Positions 1-43,275 of a stretch of DNA of 44,289 nucleotides are shown here, piece by piece (positions within the stretch are counted from its first letter, which is position 1; each line of letters opens with the position of its first letter). Where the stretch lies: the IMG/VR virus record IMGVR_UViG_3300048833_000078, positions 1 through 44,289 of that record. One strand, written 5' to 3'. The notes under the pieces were generated by a model. The model saw only the letters and a program-made list of their open reading frames with translations, did not search any database and was not told the origin of the DNA. The position numbers were made by a program, and so were the translations under genes. This DNA is from a virus.

Positions 1-37
1 CGGTGCAGGTCATCTCGTGGGAGGCCGCGGCGCGGCC

Positions 38-520
38 ATGACGGGAATGCAGTCGTGGTGTCTGGCCCTTGCGCTGTCGTGTCATGCGGCCGTTGCCGGG
101 GCTGACGCCGCCTGCGACGCGTCGCGCATTGATCTGCGCGGACCCTCGGGCCGGGCGCAGTTCTCCGTTGAGGTGGTCGACACACCCGCCGAGCGCGCCC
201 GCGGTCTGATGTTTCGTGAGGACATGGCCCGATCGGCAGGCATGCTCTTTGTCTATGAGGCGCCGCAAGCGGCCGTCTTCTGGATGGAGAACACGCTGAT
301 CCCGCTCGACATGATCTTTGCCGATGCATCGGGCAGGGTGACGCATGTCCACTCTGATGCCCGCCCGCTTGATCGCACGCCGATCAATGGCGGTGAGGGG
401 GTGCAATTCGTGCTGGAGGTGAACGGCGGCCTTGCCACCCGCCTTGGAATCGGGCCGGGGGCCGAGATGCGGCACCCCGCAATTCCCTCGGACTCTGCCG
501 TCTGGCCTTGCACGCCCTAG
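38..520 (+). CDS. DUF192 family exported protein (host gene)
   Basis: About 160 aa. An N-terminal hydrophobic stretch (LALALSC followed by Ala-rich sequence) looks like a signal peptide, so the protein is probably periplasmic. The body has the DUF192 pattern: an RARGLMFRE motif, GMLFVY, then W-M-x-N-T-x-I-P-L-D-M-I-F and a C-terminal V-L-E-V-N-G-G. The biochemical role of DUF192 is unknown. An in-frame GTG lies at 17, but the ATG at 38 places the signal peptide at the extreme N-terminus and is preferred. It lies directly upstream of the tRNA-Pro gene and is host DNA, outside the prophage. Confidence 0.88.
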   Translation: MTGMQSWCLALALSCHAAVAGADAACDASRIDLRGPSGRAQFSVEVVDTPAERARGLMFREDMARSAGMLFVYEAPQAAVFWMENTLIPLDMIFADASGRVTHVHSDARPLDRTPINGGEGVQFVLEVNGGLATRLGIGPGAEMRHPAIPSDSAVWPCTP

Positions 521-598: not shown

Positions 599-675
599 CG
601 GGGCGTAGCGCAGCCTGGTAGCGCGACGGTTTTGGGTACCGTAGGTCGCGAGTTCGAATCCCGCCGCCCCGACCA
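599..675 (+). tRNA. tRNA-Pro(TGG)
   Basis: The 77-nt gene folds as a cloverleaf. The acceptor stem is CGGGGCG/CGCCCCG (599-605 with 665-671), the D stem GCGC/GCGC (608-611 with 621-624), and the anticodon stem ACGGT/ACCGT (626-630 with 638-642). The loop TTTGGGT carries anticodon TGG at 633-635. The T loop is TTCGAAT and CCA is encoded (673-675). The T stem has one A-C mismatch. This is the phage attachment site: its last 48 nt are now supplied by the phage copy, so the gene stays functional. Confidence 0.95.
628..675 (+). repeat. attL core: 48-bp direct repeat within the tRNA
   Basis: Bases 628-675 are identical to 44163-44210. Identity begins inside the anticodon stem, runs through the CCA end and stops abruptly on both sides (C627 versus T44162, A676 versus T44211). 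Such a repeat, with an integrase gene starting 17 bp inside, is the standard mark of integration into a tRNA 3' end by a tyrosine recombinase. Confidence 0.95.
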
Positions 676-9376: not shown

Positions 9377-9404
9377 ATTTGATCCGATAATTTCGGATTG
9401 TCAA
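9377..9404 (-). promoter_or_regulatory. Leftward promoter with an operator filling the spacer
   Basis: On the minus strand a perfect -35 TTGACA lies at 9404-9399. Next comes the 17-bp palindrome ATCCGATAATTTCGGAT (9382-9398, self-complementary in its arms), then a -10-like TCAAAT (9382-9377, 4 of 6 consensus bases). A second operator, TCCGATATTTTCGGA (9413-9427), sits 30 bp upstream centre to centre, about three helical turns. A repressor on the first site would block RNA polymerase. The promoter should drive the operon from 9346 down to the integrase. Confidence 0.75.
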
Positions 9405-9888: not shown

Positions 9889-9909
9889 GCTGCAGTCTTA
9901 CCTCGGCTA

Positions 9910-9924
9910 TCCGAAAAAATCGAA
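9910..9924. promoter_or_regulatory. Operator copy 3, imperfect (TCCGA-N5-TCGAA)
   Basis: TCCGAAAAAATCGAA has one mismatch in the right arm relative to the consensus TCCGA-N5-TCGGA. It sits 22 bp upstream of the repressor start, so it would overlap the repressor's own promoter or leader. It is a plausible low-affinity autoregulatory site, like OR3 of lambda. Confidence 0.68.
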
Positions 9925-9943
9925 TCCTGACCTTTGCTCGGGC

Positions 9944-9972
9944 TTGCAAATCCGAAAAGTTCGGATTAACGG
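9944..9972 (+). promoter_or_regulatory. Rightward promoter with operator copy 4 in the spacer
   Basis: A -35-like TTGCAA (9944-9949) is followed by the 17-bp ATCCGAAAAGTTCGGAT (9950-9966) and a weak -10 position (9967-9972). This is the same operator-in-spacer design as the leftward promoter. With flanking bases the palindrome is 19 bp (9949-9967). If the spacing is right, transcription would start at about 9979, the A of the Cro-like gene's ATG. The -35 matches 4 of 6 bases and the -10 is poor, so the promoter call is weaker than the operator call. Confidence 0.62.
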
Positions 9973-11362: not shown

Positions 11363-11742
11363 CGGGGTTCCGTTTGCCGCCCGCTGGTGCTGCCGGTGTT
11401 TCCCGGCAGCTTCGCGAAATCCAGAGCAATCAGCGTCCTGGAATCGGCGACGTCGCCGTGGTGCTGTGGGCTATTGCGGAAGTCATCGGTTGTCGAACCG
11501 ACAAGGCAACCGCCCTTTGGCATGCCGGAACCTATCTGACCGTCGATATCCTGGATGATGACTACGATGGTGTGCCGGACTTCGATGCGCTGTCAGCGCG
11601 GCTGCTGTTGGATTTGGCAGCATCAACTGGCCGGGTTGTCGCGCTCGGCGCGCCTGTCGTCAGTGAGGGAGCGGGCATTATCGGGATCGAACTGCGTGCG
11701 AACCGTGCGGGTGGTCTGATCTTGTCGATGGCGGTGCTGTGA
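11359..11742 (+). CDS. Hypothetical phage protein (127 aa)
   Basis: 127 aa, beginning MTGFRLPPAGAAGV. A helical segment (V-A-V-V-L-W-A-I-A-E-V-I-G-C) and an acidic D-I-L-D-D-D-Y-D-G-V-P-D loop are visible. The start at 11359 is set by the ATGA overlap with the gene before it. No family recognised. Confidence 0.62.
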   Translation: MTGFRLPPAGAAGVSRQLREIQSNQRPGIGDVAVVLWAIAEVIGCRTDKATALWHAGTYLTVDILDDDYDGVPDFDALSARLLLDLAASTGRVVALGAPVVSEGAGIIGIELRANRAGGLILSMAVL

Positions 11743-12301
11743 TGGTGGGTGTCGGCCACTCGCACCCCGGTCTCGGGGTGTTTCAAGGTAGCCATGAAGT
11801 CGTTCCTTCCTTCATGGTTCTGCGCGGTGTGCGGGGTTCAGGCCGCAGCGCCGCAGGTGGTGCCTCTGATGTAGCCCAGAGGCTTCGCCATGGGGGCGGT
11901 TCGCGCGAACGGATCGCCCCTCCAGATGGCCTTGGTTTCCGCAATGCTGGAGGTCATCGGAGTGTGATGTGCTGCGCAAGCAGTGCGTCACACCTCTCCA
12001 GCTCTCGGAGGCCGACCCGATTCTGTCAATCCAGCCTTACAGGCCGTGGGCAGCGCCCGCTGGCCGCCCGCATCCACCTTCCTGCTTCGGGTGATGCGGA
12101 AGACTTGGGCGGCACTGCCATGCTGCCCGCTTTCTATTCGAACCCGATCCCCTTAGCTGGCTTCATCCTCCTCCCGGGGTCAGCACCGCACCGCCGCGCG
12201 GCGGCGGGGATCGGTGGCGCGCCGGGTAGCGATCCCCGCGGGTCGGGCAACCGGCTCGCGGGTGATCCTGCGCAAAAAGATTTGTTGTGTGGGGTGGCAG
12301 C
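11743..12301. other. 559-bp stretch without a convincing gene; GC palindromes near its end
   Basis: Open frames here are poor in composition and none has a good start. The 3' part has CCGCCGCGCGGCGG (perfect 14-bp palindrome, 12191-12204). A 10-bp perfect inverted repeat follows, GCGGGGATCG (12204-12213) with CGATCCCCGC (12230-12239), whose 16-nt spacer contains GGCGCGCC. An AT-rich patch (AAAAAGATTTGTTGTG) lies just before the next gene. An imperfect hairpin spans 11964-11991. A regulatory or origin role is possible. Confidence 0.5.
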
Positions 12302-12826
12302 ATGAGCCTTTACGACATCATCCGCGCCGGTCGCGTGGCGCGCTGGCATGCAAACCCAGACATGGCGCACATCCGCGAGACGAATGCCGAGCATCAATGG
12401 ATGGTCGCGGTGATCCTGCTGCGGATTTGGCCCAAGGGCGAAGAGGCTCTGATCACCGAAGTGCTCTACGCCGCCCTGCACCATGATGTGGGCGAGGTGA
12501 TCGGCGATCTGCCTGCGCCGTTCAAGGACCGGCGCCCCGAGGCTGCCGCGCTGCATGCCGAAGAAGAGGCCAAGGTGCGCGAGGAAATGGGCGCGGGCTT
12601 CTGGCTGACGGCGGAAGAGCGGGACTGGCTGTCGCTGGCCGATCGGCTCGCAGCGTGGGTCCATGTCGCGCATCACCGGCCCGAGCTGCTGGACGGCGAT
12701 GGCTGGCCCGAGGCCGGTGCCTGGATCAGCACTGCGGCAAGCAAGCTCGGCTGTGCCGGCACGGTGGTCGATCTGATGCGCCGGACGCTGCGGCTCGACC
12801 CCATTGCGCATGGGGTAGCTGCATGA
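12302..12826 (+). CDS. HD-domain phosphohydrolase, YfbR-like 5'-deoxynucleotidase fold
   Basis: 174 aa. The metal ligands of the HD fold are visible: His31 (A-E-H-Q-W), His61-Asp62 (H-H-D-V-G-E-V-I-G-D) and Asp114 (L-A-D-R-L). R-W in R-V-A-R-W-H matches the YfbR substrate loop. YfbR hydrolyses deoxynucleoside 5'-monophosphates. In a phage it may adjust dNMP pools during replication. The start at 12302 is preceded by GGGGTGGCA. It heads a series of four-nucleotide overlaps that runs to 15780. Confidence 0.8.
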   Translation: MSLYDIIRAGRVARWHANPDMAHIRETNAEHQWMVAVILLRIWPKGEEALITEVLYAALHHDVGEVIGDLPAPFKDRRPEAAALHAEEEAKVREEMGAGFWLTAEERDWLSLADRLAAWVHVAHHRPELLDGDGWPEAGAWISTAASKLGCAGTVVDLMRRTLRLDPIAHGVAA

Positions 12827-13068
12827 ACGGGCATCAGACGCGCTGCCGGGCGCGTGTCCGGCAAAGCATCCGCGCCATCATCGCAACGGTCGCGGCCCAG
12901 CATGGCCTGACCGAGGCTGACATCTACGTCCGGGATCGCTCCGGCCCCGTCAGCGCTGCGCGGCGCGAGGCGTGGACCTCGGCCCATGCGGCTGGCTTCT
13001 CCATGGCGGACATCGCGCGGGTTGGCGGCTGGAACCATAGCTCGATCTGCCATGGGGTGCGCCAATGA
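12823..13068 (+). CDS. DnaA domain IV-like DNA-binding protein (81 aa)
   Basis: 81 aa. Residues 45-80 (A-A-R-R-E-A-W-T-S-A-H-A-A-G-F-S-M-A-D-I-A-R, then G-G-W-N-H-S-S-I-C-H-G-V-R) resemble DnaA domain IV, where an R-x-x-A-M helix, an I-G-x-x-F-G-x-R-D-H-[ST]-[ST] element and a final H-x-x-R contact the DnaA box. The AAA+ domain is absent. A stand-alone domain IV next to replication genes could mark or block an origin. Start fixed by ATGA overlap. Confidence 0.7.
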   Translation: MNGHQTRCRARVRQSIRAIIATVAAQHGLTEADIYVRDRSGPVSAARREAWTSAHAAGFSMADIARVGGWNHSSICHGVRQ

Positions 13069-13682
13069 CCCAGAACCGCAGTTCCGCCGTGATGCAGCAG
13101 CGGTCAGAACCCCATGACAGCCTTGACGATTTCCCAACGCCGCCGTGGGCTACCCGGGCGCTGTGCGAGCGGCTGTATTCGTCGCCGCCAATTTGGCCAC
13201 TGATCTGCCGCGAACCCGCTGCCAATCGCGGCCATATGGTGCGTCCGCTGCGCGAGTTCTTCGCCCAGATCGTTGCGGCTGACGTGCACGACTACGGTGC
13301 CGGTTTCCCAGTTGAGGACTACCTGTTTGGTCCGGATACCCCGCCAGTGGATTGGACGATCACGAATCCGCCCTTTCGGATCGCTGAGCAATTCATCACA
13401 CGGGCTCTGGATACCTCTGCGTGGGGCGTGGCGATGCTGGTTCGCTCGGCGTTCCTCGAGGGCATTGGGCGTCATACCCGATTGTTTTCGCTGACACCGC
13501 CCACCTCGGTTCTGCAGTTTGCGGAGCGGGTCGTGATGCATAAGGGGCGGCTCGCCCCGGAAGGCAGCACTGCAACGGCCTATTGCTGGCTGGTGTGGGA
13601 CAAGCGCTGCGGGACCGGCACCCGGTTCGACTGGATCGAACCCTGCCGCAAACGGCTTGAGCGTGCGGGGGATTATCAATGA
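13065..13682 (+). CDS. SAM-dependent methyltransferase, N6-adenine type
   Basis: 205 aa. It has the typical phage opening D-F-P-T-P-P-W-A-T-R-A-L, an E-P-A-A-N-R-G-H-M motif I equivalent, D-W-T-I-T-N-P-P-F as catalytic motif IV (N-P-P-F) and a hydrophobic W-G-V-A-M-L-V-R segment. N-P-P-F marks DNA amino-methyltransferases. No endonuclease is nearby, so protection from host restriction is the likely use. It overlaps both neighbours by 4 nt. Confidence 0.85.
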   Translation: MTQNRSSAVMQQRSEPHDSLDDFPTPPWATRALCERLYSSPPIWPLICREPAANRGHMVRPLREFFAQIVAADVHDYGAGFPVEDYLFGPDTPPVDWTITNPPFRIAEQFITRALDTSAWGVAMLVRSAFLEGIGRHTRLFSLTPPTSVLQFAERVVMHKGRLAPEGSTATAYCWLVWDKRCGTGTRFDWIEPCRKRLERAGDYQ

Positions 13683-15124
13683 CCCGCGAACAGCAGATCG
13701 CGGCAGAGGTCGCCGCCCGCTACGGATGCCCGGTTCCGGCCGAGGCCGTGCAGGTGCTGCCGGTGGGAAAAAGCGCGTGGCAGGCGCCGGTGTGGGATCC
13801 GAAGTCAAACGAGCTTCGCTACCCGGATGCTGAGGCCCGTCAGCGGGCTGCGCATGCGGCGCACTACATTCTTGGGCGCAATATCGCGTCTGCCCGCGCT
13901 GCAGAGGCGCGCAATGCACGCCGCGCCGATGTCGCGCGGCTGCATGCCGAGGGCATCTGGTCGTCGGAGATTGCGCGGCGGCTCGACGTGTGCCCAACCA
14001 CTGTTTCTGATGATCTCGCCGCGCTCGGCCTGAAACCGGTCAAGCCTCCGGCTGGCATCCGTCGCCGAAAAACCCCCTATGTCGTGGCGCCCGAGATCAT
14101 CGCCCGAAATGCGCGCATTGCGGAGCTGGCGGCCCTTGGTTGGTCTTCCGAGCAAATCGGGCAGGCGGTCGGATTTACCAGACAGACAGTGAATGCGGTT
14201 GCTGCCAAGCTCGGGATCGAGATCAAGCGCCGGGAAAGGCCGTCGCTGAGCAAGGCCAAGGCGGTTGTCGCGCGCGAGGAACGCGCGGCAGCGGAGGTCG
14301 CCCGCCGTGCCGAGGTGCGCAAGCTGATCGAGGCCGGGCAGCTGACGCGCGATATCGCGGATCGCCTTGGTGTGACGCCCAGAACGGTAGCGCGCGATGC
14401 CACTGCCTTGGGGCTGGATTTGGTCGATGGGCGGTCCCTGCGCAAGCCGCGATCCCAAACCATGGTCGAGATGCACGAGGAAAGAGAGACCCGGCGCGAC
14501 CTGGTTGTGCGCCTGCATGCGCGCGGGCTGAAGACCGCCGAAATCGCCGCGTCGATCGGGATGACGGCGCGGACGGTTCGGCACGATCTGCATGCGCGCG
14601 GCGTCAAGTTCGCCGATCCGCAGGGGGCTGTGGTTCTGGCCCGTGCACGCCGCGAGGCGCAGGTGGCCGCGACGATCGCCGCCCGTGATGCGAAGTTGCG
14701 GCAATTCATCGCTGAGGGAATGGGCAGGGCTGAGATGCGCGCGGCGCTTGGGGTGAAGGAAAACACCCTGCGCAAGGATCTGGCCCGGCTCGGTGGCCTT
14801 CGGGTGCCGGATGACGCTGCCATCAAGCGGCGGCGGGCAGAGGTTGCGAAGATGCGTTCCGCGGGCAAGACGCTCGCCGAGATCAGGGCGGCATTGGGCA
14901 TCAGCTCTTCCACGCTGACCTTGGATATTCGCGCGGTCGGTTTGGTCGGTGGCAAGAATGCCAAGGCAGAGCGCCAAATGCGCGTGGTGCAGATGCGATC
15001 GGAAGGCGCGACCCTCCAGCAGATGGTCGAGGCGCTTGGCGTCAGTGCGTCGACGATCTCGGCCGACATCACGGAACTGGGATTGGCCAGATCGAACAAT
15101 AATCAAAGAGGGGTGGCGGCGTGA
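13679..15124 (+). CDS. Protein with seven tandem helix-turn-helix units (481 aa)
   Basis: 481 aa. After about 75 N-terminal residues there are seven units of the form R-x-x-[VL]-x-x-[LM]-x-x-x-G-x-[ST]-x-x-[EDQ]-[IM]-x-x-x-[LI]-G-[VIM]-[ST]-x-x-T-[VLI]-x-x-D-[LIA]-x-x-[LV]-G-[LV], at about 79-119, 141-180, 209-246, 271-309, 336-373, 385-422 and 431-470. They are joined by basic linkers. Each resembles a resolvase or sigma-region-4 type HTH. No catalytic domain is seen. Multiple HTHs suggest a long DNA target or bridging of several sites. It is tightly coupled with the methyltransferase before it and the DUF1376 gene after it. Confidence 0.85.
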   Translation: MTREQQIAAEVAARYGCPVPAEAVQVLPVGKSAWQAPVWDPKSNELRYPDAEARQRAAHAAHYILGRNIASARAAEARNARRADVARLHAEGIWSSEIARRLDVCPTTVSDDLAALGLKPVKPPAGIRRRKTPYVVAPEIIARNARIAELAALGWSSEQIGQAVGFTRQTVNAVAAKLGIEIKRRERPSLSKAKAVVAREERAAAEVARRAEVRKLIEAGQLTRDIADRLGVTPRTVARDATALGLDLVDGRSLRKPRSQTMVEMHEERETRRDLVVRLHARGLKTAEIAASIGMTARTVRHDLHARGVKFADPQGAVVLARARREAQVAATIAARDAKLRQFIAEGMGRAEMRAALGVKENTLRKDLARLGGLRVPDDAAIKRRRAEVAKMRSAGKTLAEIRAALGISSSTLTLDIRAVGLVGGKNAKAERQMRVVQMRSEGATLQQMVEALGVSASTISADITELGLARSNNNQRGVAA

Positions 15125-15780
15125 TGCAGGCGATTGAGGATGACTTCTGGACCTATCCCCTTCGTGAGGGCGACACGCTCGCGTCGAACGAATGGGTTGA
15201 GCTGCACATCCACCGCCTGCTGACCTCGCGCTTCATCGCCTATGCCCTGCGCGAGGACCGGCGGGCCGATATCGGGACGGCGCTGATCCTGTGGTCAGAG
15301 TGCTATAGGCAGGACCCGGCAGGCACCTTGCCGGATGATGATGTGGAGCTCGCGCAGTTGGCCAAGTTCGGCACGGATGTCGAGGCGTGGCAGCGGGTGC
15401 GCGCGGGCGTGCTGCACGGTTGGCGCGCTTGCCATGTCGAGACAGAGGCAGGCTACCGAACGGATCGCCTCGGCCATCCCTTTATCGCGGAAATCGCCGA
15501 ACGGTCAGTCAAGCGCAAGAAGGGCAGGGCGCAGGGGCGCGAGGCTGCGCGCCTGGCCGTCACGCGCAGCCGGGTGCGGCAGAAGATGAAGGGCATGGCG
15601 GGTCTCGCCCGGGTCGCGGCTTCGGCGCAGGCGGTCGAGGCGATCGTCGGTTGGCTCGATGACAACCAGCTGTTCGTCACCGAGGACAATATTCGCGCCG
15701 GCGCCGAGGCTGCGGTTGGGGTGCTGCGGGTGGTGCCCTATCGGCGCGGTGAGGGTGGTTCCGCAGGTGAAAGCCCCTGA
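15124..15780 (+). CDS. DUF1376/YdaU-like phage replication-module protein
   Basis: 218 aa. The N-terminal 110 residues (W-T-Y-P-L-R-E-G-D, S-N-E-W-V-E-L-H-I-H-R-L-L, A-L-I-L-W-S-E-C-Y-R-Q-D-P-A-G-T-L-P-D-D-D-V-E-L-A-Q-L-A) fit DUF1376, often found where phage replication initiators lie. A basic linker (R-K-K-G-R-A-Q-G-R-E-A-A) and a helical C-terminus follow. The GTG at 15121 and the ATG at 15124 (TGATG overlap) are both possible; ATG is preferred. It ends the coupled operon and is followed by a terminator. Confidence 0.72.
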   Translation: MQAIEDDFWTYPLREGDTLASNEWVELHIHRLLTSRFIAYALREDRRADIGTALILWSECYRQDPAGTLPDDDVELAQLAKFGTDVEAWQRVRAGVLHGWRACHVETEAGYRTDRLGHPFIAEIAERSVKRKKGRAQGREAARLAVTRSRVRQKMKGMAGLARVAASAQAVEAIVGWLDDNQLFVTEDNIRAGAEAAVGVLRVVPYRRGEGGSAGESP

Positions 15781-15786
15781 AATCAA

Positions 15787-15801
15787 CTGAAATGATTTCA
15801 G
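15787..15801. promoter_or_regulatory. Palindrome CTGAAAT-G-ATTTCAG
   Basis: Perfect 7-bp arms around a single G. Related elements (CTTCAG, TTTCAG, CTGAAAT) recur between 15818 and 15858, so the sequence may be a set of binding sites. It lies 7 bp after the stop of the DUF1376 gene. Confidence 0.5.
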
Positions 15802-15820
15802 AAATGATGTGACAGACTTC

Positions 15821-15842
15821 AGGGCGATTTCGCCCTTCTTTC
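15821..15842 (+). terminator. Rho-independent terminator-like hairpin after the replication operon
   Basis: AGGGCG (15821-15826), loop ATTT, CGCCCT (15831-15836), then TCTTTC. It is a six-bp GC-rich stem with a short pyrimidine tail, about 40 bp after the last gene of the operon. Confidence 0.65.
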
Positions 15843-15865
15843 AGGCCTCTAGCTGAAATTGCCCT

Positions 15866-15904
15866 ACAGGACAGGACAACGACAGTAACAGGACAACAAC
15901 AGGA
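15866..15904. repeat. Tandem 17-bp direct repeats, possible iterons
   Basis: ACAGGACAACGACAGTA (15871-15887) is followed immediately by ACAGGACAACAACAGGA (15888-15904), 14 of 17 bases identical, with an extra ACAGG at 15866-15870. Short tandem repeats behind a replication gene could be initiator-binding iterons, but only two units are present. Confidence 0.5.
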
Positions 15905-15966
15905 AATTCCTTCACGCCGGGGCGGTGATGTGGCGCGGGGCAAGGTGCTGAGAAAAGGGGTGCGAC

Positions 15967-16560
15967 ATGGCAAGCGAAGCGCAAGACGTGAACGGCCCGG
16001 TAGAGGGCAGGGCAGCGGTCAGGCTGCATCTGATCGATCGACTGGAGGCGGCCGGCATGACCCGGCCCCGGCGCATGGGTGTCGAGGCGTTCGAGGCCGG
16101 GAAAAAACATTTGGTCGAGCGCCTGGCCTATATGTCGGTCGAGAACCTTCAGGTGCTGGCTGATGCGCTGATCGACACGGCGGCATCGAATGAATGGCCT
16201 TCCGAGATCGTCATGATGCAGCTGGCGCGCGGCATCCAGACGCCGCCGCCTGCGCAGTCGCGGGCGCTGACCAGCTGGCTTGCCTCGGTCGAGGGGCCAA
16301 AGGCTGTGGCCGGTGGGTATCTGGTCGATCTCTTCCGATTCATCCGGCAGCGCCTGCGCCCGCCGACCCCTTACGAGATGCGCGAGATCGGTGAGCGGGC
16401 GCGTGAGCATGATCGGCGGCGGCAGATCATTCAGGAAAAGATCCGGGCCGAGATGGCGACGGATGATGACCGCAACTGGCTGATGGGCTGGCTGCGCGAT
16501 GAAGAGCTGGCGTTGGCGCTGGTGGATGAAGGCAACAAGAAACGGGCGGGTGCAGCATGA
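15967..16560 (+). CDS. Hypothetical phage protein (197 aa)
   Basis: 197 aa, predicted mostly helical with several charged stretches (H-L-V-E-R-L-A-Y-M-S-V-E-N-L-Q-V-L-A-D-A-L-I-D-T and R-E-H-D-R-R-R-Q-I-I-Q-E-K-I). AAAGGGG lies just upstream of the ATG. It overlaps the next gene by ATGA. No family recognised; position suggests a late-early or regulatory function. Confidence 0.66.
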   Translation: MASEAQDVNGPVEGRAAVRLHLIDRLEAAGMTRPRRMGVEAFEAGKKHLVERLAYMSVENLQVLADALIDTAASNEWPSEIVMMQLARGIQTPPPAQSRALTSWLASVEGPKAVAGGYLVDLFRFIRQRLRPPTPYEMREIGERAREHDRRRQIIQEKIRAEMATDDDRNWLMGWLRDEELALALVDEGNKKRAGAA

Positions 16561-42282: not shown

Positions 42283-43275
42283 TCACGTGGACAGGCATTC
42301 GTCCTGTTCGTAATCTTCCTCATCGTATTTGAGCCCGCGCTGTTCGGCGTCCAGACGCCTCCTGTATCGAGCAAGCTCGGCTTTTGCGTGTTGTTCGGCC
42401 TCGTCCCGAATATAGTCCCTGTAGCCTTCAAATACCGGGTAGAAGTTCAGCGTAAGAAGGCGATCCAGTTGTTCGTGTAGGCCCTTCATCGTGAGTTTTC
42501 TGCCGGCAAGCGCTGACGACTCCGCAAACAGGAGAAATTGCTCGGAGAGCAAGTGGATGCGGTAGAGTTCGTCTTGCCTCAGGTAGTTCTTGCCGATGAC
42601 TACCTCAGCGGCCGTGGGCTCTGTTCCAGTGAGAGCTTGAAGGCCCATCTTGCTCTCGAGGTGGTCGGCCCGATCCAAGATGATCTTTGAGCTGGTCATC
42701 CCTGTAATCGCATGGTGGAATTTGTCCTGCAGCAAGGCGTAGAAGCGCCTCACGTCCTTCGAGTTTGGTTCATAGTCCGCCGCCGAAACTTTGAAGCATT
42801 CACGGACTTTTGCGTAGACTTGCATTTCCGCAGCGCGAAGAGCTCGTATCTCTGCAGCGAGCTTGTTCAGCTTCTCTGGGCTCTCGCGAAGAGCCTTTTC
42901 GTTGATGACGTAGCCTTGCTCAATGTATGCGCGCACAACAGCGGCAGACCATTTCCGCAACGCGCTCGCAGCCTTGGAGTTAACGCGAAATCCTACCGCG
43001 AAAATGGCATCCAGGCTGTAGAGCTTGACCGGTTTGGTTGAACGAGCAATATCAGTTTTTCTGATATTGCTCTCTTCGTCGAGCTCGTGGTCGGCGAAAA
43101 TATTGGCCAAATGCATCGAAACGTTGGACTGGGTCACGCCGAAGATCTTTGCAATCTGCGCCTGTGTTCCCCAGATGGACTGATCTTGGTCCAGAAAGCG
43201 GAGATCAGCGTCTCCACCGTCTGAGCAGCGATACGCCATTGGTGTGAAGTGTGGTTCGTCGTTTGCGGTAGCCAA
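42283..43275 (-). CDS. RhuM family protein
   Basis: 330 aa. It has the family's core: F-L-D-Q-D-Q-S-I-W-G-T-Q-A-Q-I-A-K-I-F-G-V-T-Q-S-N-V-S-M-H-L at the start, S-N-I-R-K-T-D-I, L-D-A-I-F-A-V-G-F-R-V-N-S, F-R-x-W-[AS] as R-K-W-S-A, then the long helical C-terminal region ending in an acidic tail. RhuM proteins are found on pathogenicity islands, prophages and mobile elements; their biochemical activity is unknown. The TTG at 43275, with AAAGG 9 nt upstream, is the likely start. It is a cargo gene near attR. A terminator follows it. Confidence 0.85.
   Translation of the reverse strand: MATANDEPHFTPMAYRCSDGGDADLRFLDQDQSIWGTQAQIAKIFGVTQSNVSMHLANIFADHELDEESNIRKTDIARSTKPVKLYSLDAIFAVGFRVNSKAASALRKWSAAVVRAYIEQGYVINEKALRESPEKLNKLAAEIRALRAAEMQVYAKVRECFKVSAADYEPNSKDVRRFYALLQDKFHHAITGMTSSKIILDRADHLESKMGLQALTGTEPTAAEVVIGKNYLRQDELYRIHLLSEQFLLFAESSALAGRKLTMKGLHEQLDRLLTLNFYPVFEGYRDYIRDEAEQHAKAELARYRRRLDAEQRGLKYDEEDYEQDECLST

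Follow-up and report, generated by a model that had tools for sequence, protein, structure and literature searches.

Seven serial helix-turn-helix units in an early-operon protein of a putative prophage

What might a phage do with a single protein that strings together seven helix-turn-helix (HTH) units, and is such a protein new? Both questions are raised by one open reading frame, taken from the ORF list and translation of a 44,289-nucleotide viral DNA (the whole stretch analysed here, hereafter the window), whose limits and length are as an earlier sequence-only reading had given them. The window opens with a host-type gene, a tRNA and a minus-strand integrase (Table 1), the order to be expected of a temperate prophage of Rhodobacter-type bacteria that sits at a tRNA. 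Its early operon runs rightward with a 262-aa gene and then a 117-aa gene before the HD-family gene; these are followed by a small gene with weak similarity to the C-terminal HTH of DnaA, a methyltransferase-like gene, the array gene itself and a DUF1376-like gene, beyond which lie further genes and then those for terminase, portal and capsid. A DnaA-like domain is also carried by the GafY-type activators of alphaproteobacterial GTAs. The array gene overlaps its neighbours on either side by a few bases, which makes it part of the early operon and translationally coupled within it.

Table 1. Positions of the features discussed, in the window unless a locus is named
Feature	Position	Strand	Remarks
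Host-type gene, DUF192	17-520		
tRNA	599-672		
Integrase	692-1798	minus	
Conserved element, rich in GC and forming stem-loops; candidate cis element of the operon	12066-12305	+	In all four array-bearing phages
Conserved element, copy in L008	12210-12450	minus	
Conserved element, copy in L011	13020-13285	minus	
Conserved element, copy in L012	18566-18830		
HD-family nucleotidase-like gene	12287/12303-12826		Early operon
Small gene, similarity to DnaA C-terminal HTH	12655-13068		PF08299, E=1e-6, just under cut-off
DNA methyltransferase-like gene	13065-13682	+	PHROG 799, E=1e-50; stop overlaps array start (ATGA)
Seven-unit HTH-array protein	13679-15124	+	481 aa, pI 11.0, 84 K+R vs 53 D+E
N-terminal module, residues 1-77, not HTH	13679-13909	+	Low pLDDT
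HTH unit 1, residues 78-121	13910-14041	+	71% identity with same-position G397 unit
HTH unit 2, residues 140-183	14096-14227	+	Most divergent unit within the array
HTH unit 3, residues 206-249	14294-14425	+	44% between relatives, diverged
HTH unit 4, residues 269-312	14483-14614	+	37% between relatives, diverged
HTH unit 5, residues 333-376	14675-14806	+	44% between relatives, diverged
HTH unit 6, residues 382-425	14822-14953	+	71%, conserved
HTH unit 7, residues 429-472	14963-15094	+	59%, fairly conserved
Gene with weak similarity to DUF1376 / phage replication protein	15121-15780	+	Overlaps array stop

The seven units align without gaps as segments of 44 residues with the consensus ...R.A.V......G.....I...LG....T...D...LG...., and the boundaries first proposed for seven units of about 40 residues lie within a few residues of this alignment. 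Of the recognition motif proposed along with them, G-[VIM]-[ST]-x-x-T-[VLI]-x-x-D, units 3, 4, 6 and 7 carry exact copies, while units 1, 2 and 5 deviate from it. With each unit left out in turn, a profile built from the remaining six recovered the missing unit precisely in its place with 14.5-47 bits; for each unit the protein was also shuffled as a whole 300 times, and the highest shuffle score was 4-13.5 bits, depending on the unit. This rules out a chance or compositional (Ala/Arg-rich) repeat; the same profile test detected no eighth unit in the protein. At the level of known families, the units fall in generic HTH families of Pfam: the protein matches HTH_23 (PF13384) with 93 bits (E=6.5e-27) over six stretches, above the gathering cut-off of 24.6 bits.

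The AlphaFold2 model of the full protein, built on a three-sequence alignment, displays seven H-H-H units with a pLDDT of about 80-90 and a pTM of 0.28, and modelling of fragment 330-473 (units 5-7) returned three domains again, with a pLDDT of 82 and a pTM of 0.49. A low pTM combined with a high unit pLDDT points to separate domains on flexible linkers without a fixed arrangement, so that the models support beads on a string rather than a rigid superhelix. Both models rule out a single globular domain, and the seven independent trihelical units of the sequence-only reading are accordingly what structure prediction returns. A Foldseek search of the full array model against the PDB gave nothing at E<=0.001, as expected for a flexible array. 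Taken singly with VIA-align, the units match the DNA-binding domains of DeoR, GcrA, FapR, Fis and TrpR with Z of about 6-8, values commonplace for small helical domains; unit 4 aligns with the DeoR domain (8r7y) at Z 6.9 and rmsd 1.2 over 44 residues, and unit 2 with the GcrA domain (5yiu) at Z 6.9 and rmsd 4.3 over 47 residues. The DeoR domain is one that has been solved with operator DNA. Fold, charge and likeness to operator-binding domains together make it very likely that the array protein binds double-stranded DNA.

Searching by exact pattern and by profile recovered a fragment (L004) and three relatives of full length. The latter are two IMG/VR contigs, L002/G396 (96% identity) and L003/G397 (57%), together with a prophage of Gemmobacter aquaticus (56%); all seven units are kept in the four full-length copies, the window included. 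Among 395 genomes sampled from the Gemmobacter family the array protein occurs in one, namely in that prophage, and among 385 sampled from the class again in one, which is the same genome; these searches scored at most four candidates per genome, and distant relatives may escape them. Plasmids yielded no match to the array protein. These results rule out a common chromosomal gene, and the single genome among 395, together with the absence from plasmids, argues that the family is small, with too few cases for independent co-variation tests. Across 289 genomes of the class, a search with PHROG 2554 gave a match neither for the query nor for the controls. Gene 37 of RcCronus, considered as a positional counterpart, is by eye no HTH protein.

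Although no single described or curated family contains the array protein, serial HTH arrays are already known. The initial impression that no family has seven such units therefore holds with respect to curated families, while similar arrays have precedents in Cbp1, T5 D5 and PM1 ORF18. Cbp1 of the Sulfolobales (NCBIfam NF040595; PDB 2lvs) is, like the array, a tandem of trihelical HTH units, each about 40 residues long. It has three HTH domains, which arose by duplication and are bound along the CRISPR repeat in 5' to 3' order; once a domain is deleted, mutations in the segment of the site that it covers no longer make a difference (PMC10883916). By analogy, Cbp1 offers the best experimental precedent for the serial reading of a long composite site (PMC10883916), and it was the only serial HTH array for which our search found a mechanistic dissection. 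It differs from the array in having three units instead of seven, in being an archaeal host protein with a CRISPR-repeat target, and in lacking the N-terminal module. The NF040595 profile matches the family array (P0002) at E=4e-12 over about three consecutive units and the window protein (P0001) weakly, at E=1.5e-5; the corresponding scores of 46.1 and 24.9 bits are far below the family cut-off of 140.

Among phages the best precedent is bacteriophage T5 D5 (PHROG 323, 'transcriptional regulator, D5-like'), which by eye appears to have four serial units of HTH type. Its annotation is that of a DNA-binding protein needed both for replication and for late transcription, and the D5 gene is immediately followed by the putative helicase gene D6, comparable to the two array relatives with a P4-type primase-helicase downstream. 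PHROG 323 matches P0001 at 1.8e-15 and P0002 at 7e-18 in stretches of about two consecutive units, whereas D5 itself matches it over residues 1-253 at 1.2e-71. With 255 aa and a pI of 6.3, D5 resembles the array at the level of the fold, unit by unit, without full-length orthology. Since D5 and Cbp1 share the fold and are not orthologues, any transfer of function from them to the array is by analogy.

The N-terminal module is found again in Ruegeria phage 45A6, whose protein ANH49055.1 (PHROG 2554) has the same module followed by three units and is 29% identical to the window protein over residues 24-248. The window protein thus shows the arrangement of the PHROG 2554 type, N-module plus three units, and carries four more units; ANH49055.1 has three units rather than seven, then a GP88 domain, and an FtsK-like gene comes next. 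The GP88 domain is present only in P0003 and not in the window protein. Searching predicted viral proteins by structure with the array gave 17 matches at E<=0.001. One of them is ORF18 of Bacillus phage PM1 (YP_007678045.1; L029 9461-10555); although its annotation reads 'RNA polymerase sigma factor', it is a series of HTH units spaced by about 51 residues, six of them clear and a seventh probable. Like the array, it is a long serial HTH protein of an early region, near DnaD-like, RusA and SSB genes; it differs in its unit sequence, with a recognition segment that ends in W-K, and in being Lys-rich. No significant whole-protein sequence relation was found between it and P0001, and PM1 ORF18 looks like an independent expansion. 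Separately, ORF23 of haloarchaeal virus HJTV-4 (L033 3920-4894), annotated as hypothetical, combines four HTH units with an HNH-like C-terminus. Serial HTH arrays thus appear to have arisen repeatedly in viruses, in T5 D5, PM1 ORF18, HJTV-4 ORF23 and the window family. The one paper found to pair tandem helix-turn-helix with phage concerns AVAST type 5 immunity and is, by title, unrelated to such arrays.

The HNH-like end of HJTV-4 ORF23 raises the idea that the array is the DNA-recognition part of a homing endonuclease, its nuclease domain lost or never present; the fusion of the N-module and three units to a GP88 domain in Ruegeria phage 45A6 fits this idea, as do the PHROG HNH-endonuclease families that share the units. 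The window protein, however, matches no nuclease family, its gene overlaps both operon neighbours, the ends of the array are under purifying selection, and seven units persist in every full-length copy, all of which makes a homing endonuclease highly improbable.

With Cbp1 and T5 D5 as precedents, the reading we favour is that the array protein acts as a multivalent DNA-binding factor of the early operon, which would read a long phage site for replication and/or the late switch; as a whole, we give it about an even chance. Considered by itself, the reading of a composite DNA site is rather probable, and a role in replication and/or the late switch is proposed tentatively. Mechanistically, seven individually weak HTH domains on flexible linkers would line up along the double-stranded phage DNA, covering roughly 40-60 bp if every unit binds (a figure scaled from Cbp1), and avidity would make the overall binding tight. 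The bound array would then mark or organise the region where phage replication starts and/or help to switch on late genes, a role for which the annotation of T5 D5 serves as the model.

The place of the gene bears on which of these roles is to be preferred. Its membership of a replication operon, as the sequence-only reading had it, has good support: in two relatives it is closely followed by a P4-family primase-helicase, and the array gene stays just before the replication genes although these differ between relatives. The window has the DUF1376 type there, while G397 and Gemmobacter have a primase-helicase of P4 type that includes D5_N. A regulator without any origin role, binding one or a few phage promoters or operators in an early-to-late switch, would agree with HTH units of the GerE, sigma-region-4 and DeoR type, with a gene upstream of the terminase genes, with a conserved structured element within the same operon, and with the annotation of D5 for late transcription as well as replication. 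The coupling of the array gene is nevertheless to replication genes, not late ones, and it keeps its place when those genes change, so we regard a purely regulatory role as rather unlikely.

The comparison of the window with L003 revealed an uneven distribution of changes along the array. In the N-terminus together with units 1-2, dN amounts to 0.18; it reaches 0.66 across units 3-5 and their linkers and is back at 0.23 in units 6-7. All three segments have a similar, near-saturated dS; at the ends, a dN/dS of about 0.15-0.2 indicates purifying selection. The N-terminal module, 88% identical to its G397 relative over residues 1-60, has the highest conservation in the protein. Units 1, 2, 6 and 7 share 31, 32, 31 and 25 identities with the unit at the same position, and at most 17 with units elsewhere. 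For units 3, 4 and 5 the figures are 19, 15 and 18 at the same position versus 20, 16 and 17 at other positions; these units have diverged between the two types as far as unrelated positions. As the ends are closest to their own positions and the centre is not, the ends must have been kept constant as the centre either diversified strongly or was exchanged, and, with dS near saturation, recombinational exchange of central units may have contributed.

This pattern also bears on a role as a largely non-specific coat or compaction protein, nucleoid-like, that would for example shield phage DNA or aid packaging. Such a protein could well be very basic, with many DNA-binding units on flexible linkers, and the proteins found in the virion of a T5-like phage include a homologue of D5 (PMC8624392). 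Neither recognition-helix faces that vary by unit nor the individual conservation of units 1, 2, 6 and 7 between relatives would be needed for non-specific coating, however; we consider this role improbable.

The split of the four phages by array centre is the same as their split by replication genes, two against two, which suggests that the central divergence may be linked to the replication module; being a single contrast, it is suggestive and no proof. For the favoured multivalent reader, the N-terminal module and units 1-2 and 6-7 would make the contacts common to all array-bearing phages, and units 3-5 would provide module-specific reading. A bolder version is a re-programmable modular reader, its end units anchored on a common element and its central three re-specified or exchanged together with the replication module, a counterpart in nature, made of HTH units, to TALE-type serial reading; this we regard as a long shot. 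Conserved ends around a divergent centre are in our view the most interesting part of the locus, because they make unit-by-unit DNA reading testable, and a seven-unit array could yield natural parts for the design of long-site DNA readers.

Where, then, might the array bind? Two sets of repeats had been put forward as sites. The region 15787-15904 cannot be aligned in G396, the phage with the 96%-identical array protein, which makes it improbable as an essential site and sets this suggestion aside. The repeats at 12191-12239, palindromes inside the conserved element common to the four phages, are a candidate site at most, and a folded RNA would explain the conservation of the element equally well or better. 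The element itself, of ~230 bp, lies upstream of the array gene in the same operon in all four phages and is about 79% identical between the two phage types. It had no match elsewhere in the phage collection and no family in Rfam, and among the 395 genomes, besides Gemmobacter itself, it gave just short GC-rich, chance-like matches. In the RNAalifold prediction it forms stable stems, and three pairs are compensatory; one stem-loop ends in a GCAA loop. Coding was rejected for 12066-12305, where the three codon positions take up substitutions evenly (8/9/6) and the frame is broken by a 14-nt indel although the DNA is still conserved. The element may serve as a structured RNA, be it a terminator or an antiterminator, or as a DNA site, or in both ways; its co-occurrence with the array may reflect shared descent.

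Other features of the window were recorded alongside. Some 670 bp at 11363-12034, between the 117-aa gene and the conserved element, are missing in the otherwise close G396. A perfect 14-bp inverted repeat, CGCTTGCCATGTCG / CGACATGGCAAGCG, lies at 15426-15439 and 15963-15976, its second copy covering the start codon of the gene at 15967. At the right prophage end, a RhuM-family (PF13310) gene on the minus strand (42283-43275) has weak antirepressor similarity. A palindrome-like sequence of 17 bp, ATCCGAAaa.TTCGGAT, occurs three times between divergent small genes (9382-9398, 9909-9925 and 9950-9966), and these copies are likely repressor operators of the lysogeny switch.
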